Of a stretch of 64,000 nt of DNA, positions 3,967 to 14,270 are shown in pieces. Numbering within the stretch: position 1 is the first letter of the stretch; every line of letters begins with the position of its first letter. The position numbers were made by a program, and so were the translations under genes. Below the pieces are notes generated by a model. It did no database searches and was not told the DNA's origin. It worked only from the letters and a program-made list of their open reading frames with translations. The stretch is from Acidobacteriota bacterium (GTDB lineage: Bacteria; Acidobacteriota; Thermoanaerobaculia; Gp7-AA8), in the NCBI GenBank assembly GCA_003223645.1, contig QHVT01000028.1, forward strand, positions 1 to 64,000, written 5' to 3'.

Positions 3967-4251
3967 ATGGATGACCCGAACACCGACGAACCGCTGCACC
4001 CTGCGATCCGCGCACTCAAGACCGTCTGCCGCTGCAACAACATTAAATACCGGTCGATCGAGCGTGCGATCCGCGACGGAGCGCACACGCTGACCCAGAT
4101 CGCGAATCGCACCACCGCGACGACGGGACAGTGCGGTGGAAGTTGCACGCCGGACGTGCAGGCGATGCTGGAAGAGCTCGCGCCGAAATACGCGAACGTG
4201 CCGAGGGCGGCGAACGCTCCGGCCGACGCATGGTGGGTACGAAAGGTATGA
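3967..4251 (+). CDS. BFD-like [2Fe-2S]-binding protein
   Basis: The 94-residue product has the four-cysteine pattern of bacterioferritin-associated ferredoxin domains: VCRCNNI near residue 21 and GQCGGSC near residue 55. Such domains bind a [2Fe-2S] cluster and act in iron release or as small electron carriers. I chose ATG 3967, preceded by AAGGGCGGG, over an upstream in-frame GTG at 3943. The stop overlaps the next start (ATGA), so it is the first gene of a three-gene operon with the ArsC/Spx-like gene and a small membrane protein. The C-terminal 25 residues lie outside the domain. Confidence 0.8.
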   Translation: MDDPNTDEPLHPAIRALKTVCRCNNIKYRSIERAIRDGAHTLTQIANRTTATTGQCGGSCTPDVQAMLEELAPKYANVPRAANAPADAWWVRKV

Positions 4252-4595
4252 CGAAGAAACTCGAGGTCTATCTCAAGCCGAGTTGAACGAGCTGCCGCAA
4301 GGCGGTCGCCGACCTGGAAGGTCGCGGATTCGAGCTCGTGCGCCACGATCTGGCGAAGGAACGTCCCAGCAAGGAGTTGCTCTCGAAGTTGATCGATGAC
4401 CATGGACTCGACGCTGTGCTGAATCATCGCAGCCCCGCCTACAAAGCGCGCAACCTCGGCGCGGCGAAGCTGACGAAGTCGCAGGCCATCGAGCTGATGC
4501 TCGAGGATCCGAATCTCATCCGCCGTCCTCTCGTGCTCGCGAAAGGGAAGGCGATTCTCGGATACCAGCCGGAGGAGTACGCATCGCTTCGATGA
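4248..4595 (+). CDS. ArsC/Spx-family thioredoxin-fold protein, probable selenoprotein (UxxC)
   Basis: From ATG 4248 the frame reads MTKKLEVYLKPS, then TGA (4284-4286), then TSCRKAVADLEGRGF and on to IRRPLVLAKGKAILGYQPEE and the stop at 4595. With the TGA read through, the length is 115 residues, the normal ArsC/Spx size. The whole domain aligns with the family pattern, including the RRP motif. TGA falls exactly at the first Cys of the CxxC site, giving U-T-S-C. A candidate SECIS hairpin follows. The start overlaps the previous stop (ATGA), and the stop overlaps the next start the same way, which argues against a decayed gene. Family roles are thiol-dependent arsenate reduction or redox regulation. 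A nonsense mutation is the alternative. Confidence 0.7.
4306..4328 (+). promoter_or_regulatory. Candidate bacterial SECIS hairpin
   Basis: CGACCT (4310-4315) pairs with AGGTCG (4319-4324) around a GGA loop; TC/GA pairs form below a small internal loop. The apical loop lies about 29 bases after the TGA and has G near its start, as known bacterial SECIS elements do. This is a prediction by eye. Confidence 0.45.
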
Positions 4596-5901: not shown

Positions 5902-8340
5902 ATGGCCCTCTTCCTTTACGGCGTCGCGGCTATCGCGCTGCTCATGCTCGCGCAGCGCTTCGTCCGCCCTTTGTCGAAATGGGCGGCAGTGCTCCTCTTT
6001 CTATTGCCGTTTCTGATCGCCGGCCGCGCGCTCCTCATCGATCGCGCGATGCTGCCGGCGGACTTGCCGTACATGACGGTGCCGCTGAACTGGATGAAGG
6101 CGCAGTACGGCATCGGCGACGCGAACGTCAGCTCCGGCATTCACAGCGACGTCTACTCGCAATTCGTTCCGTGGCGCAAAGCGGTGCAGTGGTCGCTCGC
6201 GCGCGGGGAATGGGGACTCTGGAACCGCTTCAGCTACGCGGGCGACATCCTGCTCGCGTCCGAACAGCCGGCGGTCTACTCGCCGATCACGTTGCTCGCG
6301 GTGTTGCTGCCGGCGACGCTCAGCTTCACGTTTACCGGCGCGCTGACGCTCTTCATCGCCGCGCTGTCGATGTTCCTCTTCGCGCGCGAGCTGGAATGTC
6401 GCGAAGGCACGGCTCTGATCGGTGCTGCGGGATGGTGTTTCGGAAGCTCGATCGTCCTCTTCCTCCACGTCTCGATGGGCGCGAGCTGGTCGTGGGCTCC
6501 GCTGGTCCTTCTCGGCGTGCGCCGCGTCGTGCGCGAGAAGACGATTCCGATTCTCGCGTTCGCGCTGACGATGCTCGTCGCCTCCGCGCATTCGGAGTCC
6601 GCACTGCTGATCGTGATTCTCGGGATTGCCTACGGCGTGTTCGAGATGTTTCGCCGTCATCCTGAGTCGGCGAAGCGCGACGAAGGATCTCGAAATGCAA
6701 AACCTGCGATTTGGAGATCCTTCGCCGTCTTCGCGGCTCAGGATGACGTGATCCAAATCATCGCGCGCGCATCCATCGCCGGTGTGATCGCGCTCCTCCT
6801 CAATGCGATTCATCTTCTGCCGTTCCTCGAAGCGATGCCGCGATCGATGGAGTACGCACACCGGCAGAACATCTATCGCTTCGAGCCGCACGGAGTCCCG
6901 ATGTCGCACGTGCTTGCGCGTGCGTCGACGACGTTCCTCCCGTATCTGCACGGCCGCAGCTGGAAGCTGGCCGCCGCCGCGCCGCCGTCGTACGTGACCG
7001 GCGCGATCGGCAGCATCCTGCTCGCGCTCGCGTTGTACGCGCTCTGGCGCAAACGATCGCGCGAGACGTGGTTCTTCGGCGCGATTTTTCTCTTCTGCGT
7101 GATCGCCGGCGCCGAATGGAAACCGCTCGCGACGCTGCTCGGCAACATTCCGCTCCTCGATCTCGCGCTCTACGATCGCTTCGCGTTCGGCGCCGCGCTC
7201 GCGCTGGCGATCCTCGGCGCGCTCGGCGTCGAAGAGATCGTCCGCCGCAACGGCGATCGCGCCGCCGCGTGGACGATGCTCGCGACGCTCGCGCCGCTCG
7301 CATTCGCGAACGCGTGGGCCGCGCGCACGCAACTCGTCGATCACGGCGACATGCACTTCGGCGCGCATGTCGTCTTCGCCGAAGTCGCGCTGCTCGCGCT
7401 CGCCGCGGCGATTCTCTTTCAGCGACGCGCCATCGTCCCGCTGCTCCTCGCCGCGATCCTCGTGCAGCGCGCGATCTCGCTGGACGGATTGCAGAAAAGC
7501 TTCCCGCAGCGCGCCGCGTATCCGCCGATCCCGATGCTCGAGCCGCTGAAACACGTCGAGCGTCCGTTCCGCGTCGTCGGCCACGGCAAGGCGATGCTCG
7601 CGGCGACCGGCACGATGTACGAGCTCGAAGACGCGCGCGGATTTTCGGCGGTGACGCTGCAGCGATTGCGCGACACGTTTTCGCTCTGGTCGATCGAGCA
7701 GCCGGTGTGGTTCAACCGCGTCGACGATCTCACGCGGCCGTTCCTCTCGTTCCTCAACGTCCGCTACGCGATCACGTGGGACCGCGATCCGCCGCCGGAC
7801 GGCTGGCGCGAAGTCTCGCGGCAGCGCGGCTCGATGCTGATCGAGAACACGCACGCGCTTTCACGCGCGTTCGTGCCGCGCACCGTGCGCGTCGGCGATC
7901 GCGATGCCATCGCAGAAATGAAAAACGCACGCGATTTCGGCGAGGTCGCATGGATCGAATCCGCCGACAAACCGTACGAGCGCGTGAACGGTCCCGGCAC
8001 GGCGACGATCAGCGATTCGAAGCTCGGCTACGTCATCGACGCGAAGATGCAAAGCGATGGATGGGTCGTCGCGTCGATCACCGCGTGGCCGGGATGGCGT
8101 GCGTACGTCGACGGGCGCCGGCTGACAACTCAAGTCGCAAATCATGCGTTCCTGTCGGTGCACGTGCCGGCAGGCGATCATCGCATCGTCTTGAAGTATT
8201 GGCCGGAGACGTTCGTGATCGGACGCGCGATCACGGCGATGACATTCCTCGCCATGATCGCGCTCGCGCTATTGAATCGACTGAAGGCGCTTTTCCAGCG
8301 ACGCGATCCGTCGCTCGTTCCGCTGCCCCTCGGGAAGTGA
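5902..8340 (+). CDS. YfhO-like multi-pass membrane protein
   Basis: The product is 812 residues with a dozen or more hydrophobic helices in the first 600 or so. A soluble C-terminal part follows, with the YfhO-type ending WPGWRAYVDG, AFLSVHVPAGDHRIVLKYWP and one last helix. YfhO-like proteins are thought to be GT-C enzymes that glycosylate cell-wall or lipid acceptors. ATG 5902 is the first plausible start; the open frame extends upstream only as the antisense of no gene, through the glycosyltransferase in another frame. A palindromic repeat is inserted in frame (residues about 252-283) in a loop. Its 3' end overlaps the convergent thioredoxin gene by 72 bases. Confidence 0.75.
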   Translation: MALFLYGVAAIALLMLAQRFVRPLSKWAAVLLFLLPFLIAGRALLIDRAMLPADLPYMTVPLNWMKAQYGIGDANVSSGIHSDVYSQFVPWRKAVQWSLARGEWGLWNRFSYAGDILLASEQPAVYSPITLLAVLLPATLSFTFTGALTLFIAALSMFLFARELECREGTALIGAAGWCFGSSIVLFLHVSMGASWSWAPLVLLGVRRVVREKTIPILAFALTMLVASAHSESALLIVILGIAYGVFEMFRRHPESAKRDEGSRNAKPAIWRSFAVFAAQDDVIQIIARASIAGVIALLLNAIHLLPFLEAMPRSMEYAHRQNIYRFEPHGVPMSHVLARASTTFLPYLHGRSWKLAAAAPPSYVTGAIGSILLALALYALWRKRSRETWFFGAIFLFCVIAGAEWKPLATLLGNIPLLDLALYDRFAFGAALALAILGALGVEEIVRRNGDRAAAWTMLATLAPLAFANAWAARTQLVDHGDMHFGAHVVFAEVALLALAAAILFQRRAIVPLLLAAILVQRAISLDGLQKSFPQRAAYPPIPMLEPLKHVERPFRVVGHGKAMLAATGTMYELEDARGFSAVTLQRLRDTFSLWSIEQPVWFNRVDDLTRPFLSFLNVRYAITWDRDPPPDGWREVSRQRGSMLIENTHALSRAFVPRTVRVGDRDAIAEMKNARDFGEVAWIESADKPYERVNGPGTATISDSKLGYVIDAKMQSDGWVVASITAWPGWRAYVDGRRLTTQVANHAFLSVHVPAGDHRIVLKYWPETFVIGRAITAMTFLAMIALALLNRLKALFQRRDPSLVPLPLGK
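6656..6747. repeat. Palindromic repeat inserted in frame in the YfhO-like gene
   Basis: The arms GTCATCCTGAGTCGGCGAAG and CGCGGCTCAGGATGAC enclose GAAGGATCTC / GGAGATCCTTC. It matches the element type seen at 187 and 52722. It reads through as RHPESAKRDEGSRNAKP and SFAVFAAQDD, a polar loop between two predicted helices, and leaves the gene open. Confidence 0.8.
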
Positions 8341-9555
8341 CTTCGCGTACTCGATCGCCAGCGCGATCGTCGCTTTCGCCGCCTCCTTGTCGCCCTTCTC
8401 CATGAAGATGTCCGCGCGCGTCGTGAACACGCTCAGCTTGCGCGGGCCGTAGACCTTCACCAGCGCGCGCTCGTTCGCTTCCAGTGCTTTGTCGTACTCC
8501 TTCATCGCCTTGTACGCGAGCGCGAGACGCGCCGGCGGGTTGTAGTCGGTCGGGAAATCGCGCGCCGACTGCTCGAGCATCGGGATTGCCTTTTCCGGAG
8601 TGCCGAGGTCGAGATAGGCGGAGAGACGGTGCGAGTCGTAGACGGCGCGTTGCTCGGGCGTCTTCGCCTCGGACGCGACCTTTTCGAGGAACGCCACCCA
8701 CTGTTCTTTCAGCGCGCGTGCGCCGGCTTCGTCCTTCACGGCATCGCGCGCGTCGATCAAGGAGATGTACAGACCGGAGCGATCATCGCCGGACAGCACG
8801 ATCTTCGGATCGTCGAAGACCTCGCGCGTTTCTTTCTCCAGCGTCGCGATCCACTCCATGCGCTTCGCGTTTTTCTCGTCGACGGAGATCGCGCAGCCGA
8901 GTCCCGTCGCCGCGACCGTCGCGGCCGAAGACGTGCCCTTCACGCGCGGATACAGCTCCATCGCGCGTGTTGCGCACGGCTCGTTCTGATCGGCCATCGA
9001 CATCGAGAAAAGCATTGATTCCGCGGTGCGGCCGAACTTGCGCCACCCTTTCGGCGCGCCGGCGAGCGCTTTCTCGTACGACTTCACCGCCTCCTCGTGC
9101 TTGCCATCGGCCGCGAGTCGATCGGCTTCGAGCAACAGCTTGTCAGTGGGACTCGTCGCTTTCGCGGACGCGTCGTCGAGCAGCTTGCTCAGCTGCGGCA
9201 CGGTTGCGCCGCCGACGTAGCGCGTCCTCACTTTTCCATCCGCGTCGAGCACGAGCAAGGTCGGCAGCGCGGGGATCGGATACTTTCTGAGGAACGCCGC
9301 ATTCGCGGCGGCTTCGGTGTTCACGCTGAGCCAGACGAACCGTCCGGCGTACCGCTCGAGGGACTTATCGGTGTAGACGTAAGCCCGCATCGAGCGACAG
9401 GTGTGTCACCACGGCGCCCACGCCTCGACGAAGACGGGAACGTTCTTCGTCTTGGCCTGGGCGAGTGCCTTCGTGTAGTTGTCTTCGATGAACGGCACCG
9501 CGCGCGCATGGAGCGCGGTCACTGCGAGAACTGCGAGCAGCGCAAGTCGTTTCAT
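8269..9555 (-). CDS. Thioredoxin-fold/TPR protein, probable selenoprotein (WUxxC)
   Basis: From ATG 9555 the frame reads MKRLALLAVLAVTALHARA (signal peptide), then VPVFVEAWAPW, then TGA (9408-9406, codon 50), then HTCRSMRAYVYTDKSLERY. The thioredoxin motif should be WCxxC and TGA sits exactly at the first Cys, giving W-U-H-T-C. The thioredoxin fold continues to about residue 130, including the cis-Pro PALPTLLVLDADG. TPR-like helices follow to residue 428. A start at 9390, after the TGA, would lack the signal peptide and active site. A candidate SECIS lies downstream. It is probably a periplasmic oxidoreductase. The 3' end overlaps the YfhO-like gene. The alternative is a nonsense mutation. 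Confidence 0.72.
9361..9386 (-). promoter_or_regulatory. Candidate bacterial SECIS hairpin
   Basis: On the minus strand GGGCTTA (9386-9380) pairs with TAAGTCC (9367-9361, one G-T pair) around a 12-base loop beginning CG. The loop starts 26 bases after the TGA, within the spacing typical of bacterial SECIS elements. Confidence 0.4.
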
Positions 9556-9564
9556 AGTGTCTCT

Positions 9565-9635
9565 GTGGAGCGGCGGCCGCCCTCGGCCGCCGGATTCTCG
9601 CGAGAGGTCGGCGGCCGAAGCGGCCGCCGCTCCAC
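9565..9635. repeat. GTGGAGCGGCGGCCGCC palindromic repeat
   Basis: GTGGAGCGGCGGCCGCC at the left is inverted as GGCGGCCGAAGCGG...CCGCTCCAC at the right, around TTCTCGCGAGAGG. Copies occur at 14367, 20263, 39490 and 47081. This one fills the gap between the S9 peptidase and thioredoxin-like genes. Confidence 0.85.
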
Positions 9636-9645
9636 TGTCATCCTT

Positions 9646-13888: not shown

Positions 13889-13968
13889 GTGGAGGACAGG
13901 CAATCCTGCCTGTCCGCCCTCTCTGCGAATCATGGCCAAAGGGACAGACCGGATCGTCTGTCCTCCAC
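13889..13968. repeat. GAGGACAGGCAATCCTGCCTGTCC palindromic repeat
   Basis: Two inner hairpins (GGACAGGCAATCCTGCCTGTCC, and GGGACAGACCGGATCGTCTGTCC) lie between GTGGAGGACAGG and CCTCCAC edges. Related copies are at 42191, 43059, 45853 and 50353. It directly follows the phosphatase stop codon and could act as a transcript end. Confidence 0.8.
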
Positions 13969-14028
13969 TTGTTCAGATTCCGAGCCGTGCAGAGATCAAT
14001 GAGTACACGGCTTTGATTTTGATGCGGC

Positions 14029-14270
14029 GAGTAATTCAATCGAGAACTCGAGTGATCCAATCGAGATCAGGGATCATCAAATCAAGAGCGGAGGTCTTCC
14101 GATCGAGAACAGGGATCATCAAATCAAGAGCGGAGGTCATCCAATCGAGAACAAAAGTCATGAAATCGAGAGCGGAGATCATCCAATCGAGAACAAAAGT
14201 CATGAAATCGAGAGCGGAGATCATCCAATCGACAATATGAGTGAGCCGATCGACAACGCGGGTCATCAAA
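14029..14270. repeat. 21-bp minisatellite, about 11-12 units
   Basis: Tandem 21-base units vary around ATCATCCAATCGAGAGCGGAG and alternate between AATCGAGAACAAAAGTCATG-like and AATCGAGAGCGGAGATCATC-like versions. Both strands stay open for part of the length because 21 is a multiple of 3, giving seven-residue repeats, but there is no credible start or domain. Together with the flanking palindromes it fills the 605-base gap between the phosphatase and the VIT1 gene. I see no gene in that gap. Confidence 0.85.

Follow-up and report, generated by a model that had tools for sequence, protein, structure and literature searches.

Introduction

Bacteria insert selenocysteine (Sec) at in-frame UGA codons with the help of SelA, SelB, SelC and SelD and of a hairpin in the mRNA, the bacterial selenocysteine insertion sequence (bSECIS) element. 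Escherichia coli shows little tolerance for changed SECIS spacing. An inventory from 2026 that covers 119 families of selenoproteins describes the bSECIS element as a hairpin with a loop of 3–9 nucleotides (nt), a G at loop position 1 or 2, a stem of 4–16 base pairs (bp) and an energy of -7.5 kcal/mol or below; the loop is mostly N1-G-[G/U]-N-N2 with N1 paired to N2, and in most elements lies 16–37 nt from the UGA (PMC13188914). According to this and a second paper, the model misses the atypical SECIS elements of some known genes (PMC13188914, PMC12013277). Here we analyze a stretch of 64,000 nt (the window) from contig QHVT01000028.1 of an Acidobacteriota bacterium (assembly GCA_003223645.1), in which a gene for a protein with a thioredoxin domain and a tetratricopeptide repeat (TPR) region, hereafter the Trx-TPR gene, carries a TGA codon at the first cysteine of its active site.

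The locus resembles known bacterial Sec insertion in its UGA at a redox cysteine and its full set of machinery genes. Among described selenoproteins, Sec thioredoxin (PF00085) and a Sec thiol:disulfide interchange protein (PF13098), both in the available parts of the same inventory (PMC13188914), share the thioredoxin fold and UxxC motif, and the Trx-TPR protein differs from them in its probable signal peptide and in the long stretch of TPRs that it carries. We consider it likely that the gene encodes an exported selenoprotein with Sec as its first active-site residue, and that insertion is directed by a SECIS of two hairpins, a proximal one (H1) serving as spacer and a distal one (H2) as the SelB site.

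Results

A TGA codon occupies the first redox position of a thioredoxin-TPR protein

The Trx-TPR gene lies on the minus strand at 8269..9555 and comprises 428 codons with the TGA read through, ending in TAG. Codon 50 (9406..9408) is TGA within AWAPW-TGA-HTC and would place Sec at the first redox position of a WUHTC motif, as the original prediction had it. A Pfam scan of the read-through protein agrees: Thioredoxin PF00085 runs straight across the TGA, scoring 38.5 bits against a cut-off of 23.5, and the domain covers residues 24–127 (9175..9486). Several TPR matches follow C-terminally, in an all-helical region of residues about 136–426 (8278..9150). An AlphaFold2 model built from 13 homologues has a mean predicted local distance difference test (pLDDT) score of 92.7 and shows the helices of the TPR region; an NCBIfam scan of the protein gave no match above any cut-off. 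The signal peptide claimed upstream in the same frame is also probable when the translation is read by eye: residues 1–19 (9499..9555) show KR, a hydrophobic core and A-R-A ahead of VPF, and the N-termini are likewise hydrophobic in most of 13 aligned homologues, with start codons chosen by hand. The next ATG beyond the TGA, at 9390, opens a reading frame of 373 residues that lacks the active site.

In a Foldseek search of the PDB with the model, the top match was E. coli CnoX/YbbN (3QOU, E 1.3e-5), which shares the arrangement of an N-terminal thioredoxin domain and C-terminal TPRs, although its template modelling score (TM-score) to the Trx-TPR model is low (0.22/0.32). CnoX is a cytoplasmic chaperedoxin, and the signal peptide read by eye argues against such a location for the Trx-TPR protein. 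In the available parts of a paper on these proteins, CnoX proteins pass clients to GroEL, and E. coli CnoX has SXXC where the Trx-TPR protein has UxxC and a probable signal peptide (PMC8129009). The thioredoxin domain alone resembles the C-terminal domain of DsbD (26% identity, TM-score 0.74 by target, root-mean-square deviation 2.5); unlike DsbD, the Trx-TPR protein has TPRs in place of the membrane parts.

The TGA is conserved and alternates only with cysteine codons

We searched for homologues in 60 genomes (the window's own included), in 148 genomes of the class and in 396 of the phylum. With E < 1e-40, 26 of the 60 genomes had one, with TGA at codon 50 in 22 and TGC in 4. The class search added one TGA gene (G144), one TGC gene (G074) and a fragment short of the codon (G073), and the phylum search added seven homologues from outside the class, all with TGA; two of these were first scored as lacking the codon, their match having begun downstream of it. 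Further genome records yielded six cysteine loci: two duplicates, one from Candidatus Eisenbacteria and three from Myxococcota. The total stands at 30 genes with TGA and nine with TGC or TGT, leaving out L047 and L048 (identical to L019 and L036 in the compared stretch) and L061 (a fragment short of the codon). The nine supply the comparison with WCxxC orthologues that had been proposed as a check. The TGA-bearing homologues span ten family codes, and TGC and TGT are the only alternatives. One of the 30, L042 from G006, is divergent, with 30% identity, the motif WAPWUYSC and one codon lost inside H1, and is possibly a paralogue.

Protein trees imply at least six changes of the codon among 32 rows, and five among 39 rows when the SECIS stretch is left out; many inner branches of these trees are weakly supported. 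In the 28 codons ahead of the TGA, the median nonsynonymous difference (pN) was 0.223 against a synonymous difference (pS) of 0.491 over 231 pairs, which points to purifying selection on the frame upstream of the TGA.

The selenocysteine machinery is present

The original prediction had named a lack of selB or selC as what would refute it. Both SelB (375 bits; cut-off 242) and tRNA-Sec (69.9 bits; type SeC by ARAGORN) are found in the window's genome (6.38 Mb, 51 contigs), together with SelA (474 bits) and SelD (374 bits); a second match to the tRNA-Sec model (47.2 bits) is a tRNA-Ser by ARAGORN. The SelD gene itself (L054, contig C29 of G000) carries an in-frame TGA (GGUACK) followed by an ordinary SECIS-like hairpin. 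Among the 22 TGA genomes in the set of 60, 20 have SelB above the cut-off and 18 have a tRNA-Sec match of at least 59 bits; G002 and G003 have weaker matches of about 50 bits, possibly to tRNA-Ser. SelB is not closely tied to the codon: 56 of the 60 genomes have it above the cut-off, whether or not they carry the Trx-TPR gene, and G020, a cysteine genome that is 99% complete, has kept tRNA-Sec and has no SelB above the cut-off. Together with the conserved codon, these data indicate that the TGA is almost certainly read as Sec.

Two hairpins follow the TGA, and the distal one tracks it

Counting from the T of the TGA, nt 7–60 fold as a single hairpin, H1, in all 30 TGA genes (7–57 in L042), with the outermost pair between nt 9–14 and nt 55–60. 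In the window H1 spans 9349..9400 on the minus strand (nt 9–60), the fold closing here at nt 12–57. Its register drifts between species, and G falls within the first two positions of its apical loop in just 5 of 30 genes. The 7-bp hairpin with a 12-nt loop noted in the original prediction does exist: 19 nt separate the TGA from its stem and 26 nt from its loop. It forms the top of H1, in a register that other species do not share, for which reason we rejected it as the SECIS; the conserved element lies further downstream.

That element, H2, directly abuts H1 at nt 61–79. In the window it occupies 9330..9348 on the minus strand, reads GCCGGACG-GTT-CGTCTGGC and has its loop 65 nt after the TGA; most genes have the form GCCGGAC[G/A]-GUU-[C/U]GUCUGGC, and its sequence and position hardly change. 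All seven of its pairs form in 30 of 30 TGA genes, compared with one of nine cysteine genes. The loop lies 64–65 nt from the UGA in 29 TGA genes and 62 nt away in L042, because that gene lost one codon inside H1; despite its divergence, L042 keeps H2 in its commonest form. H2 also agrees with the published model in all but position. The loop is GUU, GGUUC, AGUUC or AGUUU in all 30 TGA genes, in line with the loop of the model, and the stem of 7–10 bp and local folding energy of -12.6 to -20.6 kcal/mol lie within its limits. As in bSECIS elements, a G at loop position 1 or 2 is followed by U, and the ends around GUU are mostly G-C or A-U. The gene as a whole departs from bSECIS-bearing genes in having this loop at 64–65 nt rather than 16–37 nt, with an extra hairpin in between.

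The only cysteine gene with H2 intact, L036, is placed among close TGA relatives, a position suggesting that Sec was lost recently and that the hairpin stayed behind. SECIS-like remnants after cysteine codons have been reported before, according to the available parts of PMC1794560. In L019, another cysteine gene, the same residues (AGRFVWL) are encoded by different codons and H2 is gone, and its genome still has SelB and tRNA-Sec.

H2 is constrained at the RNA level

We scored folding as z-scores against random synonymous recodings with each gene's own codon use. In 23 TGA genes H1 had a mean z of -2.89, with values from -0.88 to -5.20 in single genes, and H2 a mean of -2.07; the corresponding means in 11 cysteine rows, which include the duplicates L047 and L048, were -0.62 and +0.03. 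The cysteine rows that keep H2, L036 and L048, had z of -2.15 and -2.20. Seven distant TGA genes gave -1.65 to -2.72 for H1 and -1.86 to -2.66 for H2. As controls, 252 windows of 84 nt taken from other parts of these genes averaged -0.21, with 11 at or below -2 and one at or below -3.

A whole-gene scan of 22 TGA sequences (L042 left out) measured the excess of synonymous identity. It is highest at codons +16 to +22 (0.452) and is still high up to codon +26 (0.360), against a background mean of 0.068 (standard deviation 0.080, 423 windows). The peak corresponds to the 3' arm of H1 and to H2, which covers codons +20 to +26. Within H2 the codons are fixed: GCC in 22 of 22 sequences, GTC in 22 of 22, and for glycine GGA in 20 and GGG in 2, yet the commonest glycine codon of these genes, GGC (353 of 679), is unused there. 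With ten families represented by a single gene each, the chances that synonymous choice would keep H2 multiply to about 10^-9.5, a guide and not a probability because the families share ancestry.

In 29 sequences 97.8% of cells in the H2 register pair, against 28–50% in slid registers, and for H1 and H2 together in the 22 class sequences the figure is 88%, against 34–46%. Pair 66–74 occurs as A-U, G-U and G-C, and pair 68–72 as G-C and A-U with five mismatches. A covariance model of the 22 class sequences, run with stricter filters and 30 candidates scored per genome, gave 26 matches in 147 class genomes, all within Trx-TPR homologues by coordinates; weak or differently built elements would escape this search.

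These comparisons show that a conserved UGA stands in for cysteine with the machinery at hand, that the frame is constrained on both sides of the UGA, and that conservation of H2 in the RNA tracks the UGA; they also show that the exact pairs of H1 do not matter.

A second selenoprotein gene and other features of the window

An ArsC/Spx-like gene on the plus strand at 4248..4595 is a second selenoprotein gene, with TGA at 4284–4286 (KPSUTSC) and a hairpin with loop GGA at 29 nt. The original prediction had argued that two such cases within 5 kb make random nonsense mutation less likely for each. This holds up, as the ArsC/Spx-like TGA is conserved too: homologues occur in 13 of the 60 genomes, 11 of them listed with one TGA. 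Conservation of each TGA is nevertheless a stronger argument than the presence of two cases within 5 kb.

The ArsC-like and Trx-TPR genes lie about 0.4–10 kb apart on one contig in seven genomes (G001 C26, G002 C277, G003 C88, G008 C215, G010 C257, G011 C9 and G012 C108), and in G001, G008, G011 and G012 tRNA-Sec is on that contig as well, about 3–21 kb from the ArsC-like gene. The three may form a selenoprotein gene cluster. Both neighbours in G010 (L019 and L094) carry cysteine for Sec while SelB and tRNA-Sec persist, which suggests a joint switch of the two genes from Sec to cysteine.

By eye, a GC-rich inverted repeat (GGCGGCCGC...) lies at 9556–9640, between a peptidase-like gene and the Trx-TPR gene. 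The list of open reading frames also holds one at 13932–14240 in which a short unit (KSRAEIIQSRT...) recurs, apparently in tandem.

Alternative explanations for the TGA and for H2

The best-surviving rival, which we regard as unlikely, accepts the selenoprotein and takes H1, at ordinary spacing, as the SECIS; H2 would then be an accessory that, for example, slows the ribosome or shields the UGA from termination. It draws on the stability of H1 beyond synonymous recoding, which is greater in TGA genes than in cysteine rows, and on the place of the H1 apical loop. Several observations weigh against our own reading. The spacing of H2 (64–65 nt, 62 nt in one gene) is outside the published 16–37 nt, and the H1 apical loop, 28–32 nt after the UGA in all 30 TGA genes, is inside it. 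A hairpin conforming to the model occurs at 16–37 nt in 16 of 30 TGA genes (14 of 23 and 2 of the 7 distant ones), at scattered positions. The SelD and ArsC-like genes of the same genome have ordinary elements within 16–37 nt, with loop GGA at 17 and 29 nt. Our hairpin scan finds an element in 9 of 12 ArsC rows (from 13 homologues) and is imperfect, because it misses 2 of the 11 TGA-bearing ArsC genes. RNAalifold draws a different proximal structure, albeit the same H2, and in two cysteine rows, L034 and L050, the whole 84 nt form a stable fold (z -2.73 and -2.37). Covariation in H2 is thin because six of its eight pairs never vary; shuffles match its count of changed pairs in 79 of 500 trials and its number of different pair types in 449, and sliding the register by +2 gives a higher covariation score (0.111 vs 0.098). 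For H1 and H2 together, shuffles match in 94 and 150 of 500, respectively. Well-supported independent contrasts between Sec and cysteine number only three, two fitting loss of H2 and one showing no difference, and the phylogenetic contrast of codon against H2 falls short of significance with so few independent pairs. Finally, SelB is not found above the cut-off in two TGA genomes (G016 and G047), nor tRNA-Sec at E 1e-8 in two (G006 and G016). G016 is 87% complete and yielded neither; G047 has tRNA-Sec, and its SelB lies in pieces on one contig.

What tells against H1 as the SECIS is that its register shifts between species while H2 scarcely changes in sequence or position, and that the strongest synonymous constraint falls on H2 and the 3' arm of H1. 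We also rejected a SECIS at canonical spacing in general, since conforming hairpins at 16–37 nt also occur in 6 of 11 cysteine rows and so do not discriminate; the hairpin scan found none in that range in the window's own Trx-TPR gene, and no GGA-loop hairpin at 17–29 nt, as in SelD and ArsC, was found in it. The mere presence of a hairpin at 38–80 nt was discarded as a marker as well, as 10 of 11 cysteine rows have one; only fixed place and sequence discriminate. H2 is most likely the insertion signal, at nearly twice the usual published spacing limit from the UGA. The ordinary elements of the SelD and ArsC-like genes imply that this organism's SelB probably acts on signals at normal spacing too.

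A further possibility is that H2 reflects only amino-acid conservation and shared ancestry, with no function in the RNA. The conserved AG(R/Q)FVW of the TGA proteins, the few contrasts and the thin covariation would suit it; the fixed GCC, GTC and GGA/GGG codons, the loss of H2 in L019 behind the same residues, and L104, which changes both sides of an H2 pair, make it improbable. That the UGA is read as tryptophan or cysteine by a near-cognate or reassigned tRNA, with no Sec machinery, would accommodate the two TGA genomes without SelB above the cut-off, yet several homologues of this gene use UGA as their terminal stop, the internal UGA falls precisely on the redox cysteine, and selA, selB, selD and tRNA-Sec are all in the window's genome, so we hold this reading to be very improbable. 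Equally hard to credit is a nonsense mutation or assembly error in a gene that is dead or starts at 9390: draft genomes hold errors and the shorter frame exists, but 30 genomes from different species share the TGA, which in practice excludes sequencing or assembly error, and its ten family codes, its exchange only with TGC or TGT, the constraint upstream, the machinery and the Thioredoxin match across it all speak for a living gene.

Discussion

From these comparisons we infer Sec insertion at codon 50, binding of SelB to H2, a spacer role for H1, export and a redox function. In the mechanism that we propose, SelA and SelD would make Sec-tRNA-Sec, and SelB would bring it to the UGA while binding the H2 loop, [G/A]GUU[C/U], at a linear distance of about 65 nt downstream. 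H1 (nt 9–60) would fold up the intervening mRNA and abut the near-invariant H2 (nt 61–79), shortening the path so that the complex of SelB and tRNA can reach the A site; the ribosome would have to melt part of H1 as the UGA enters that site. The signal peptide, UxxC and TPRs point to an exported thiol reductase or chaperedoxin-like protein, one that probably reduces or protects the thiols of exported proteins, with the TPR region probably binding a client or partner.

Bacterial selenoproteins as such are known, and so are atypical SECIS elements. Table 1 of the selenoprotein inventory, in the part of the source available, names no Trx-TPR family (PMC13188914). Among the matches listed in a search of open-licence literature, to which most subscription papers do not belong, no title or abstract opening describes a Trx-TPR selenoprotein or a bacterial SECIS made of two hairpins. 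As far as the literature was searched, both the Trx-TPR family and the conserved arrangement of two hairpins, with H2 so far from the UGA, are new. The evidence leans towards a SelB-binding hairpin more than 60 nt beyond the Sec codon, with the gap folded by a hairpin of no fixed register, in an exported Trx-TPR selenoprotein family that the inventory would not yet list.

Should H2 prove to be where SelB binds, SECIS search programs work with too narrow a spacing range, and other genes may have been missed; the reach of SelB to the A site from a distant hairpin would also become directly testable. For the Acidobacteriota, the data point to a selenoprotein family spread over the phylum, whose members can be expected to lose their active site to truncation in ordinary gene calling.

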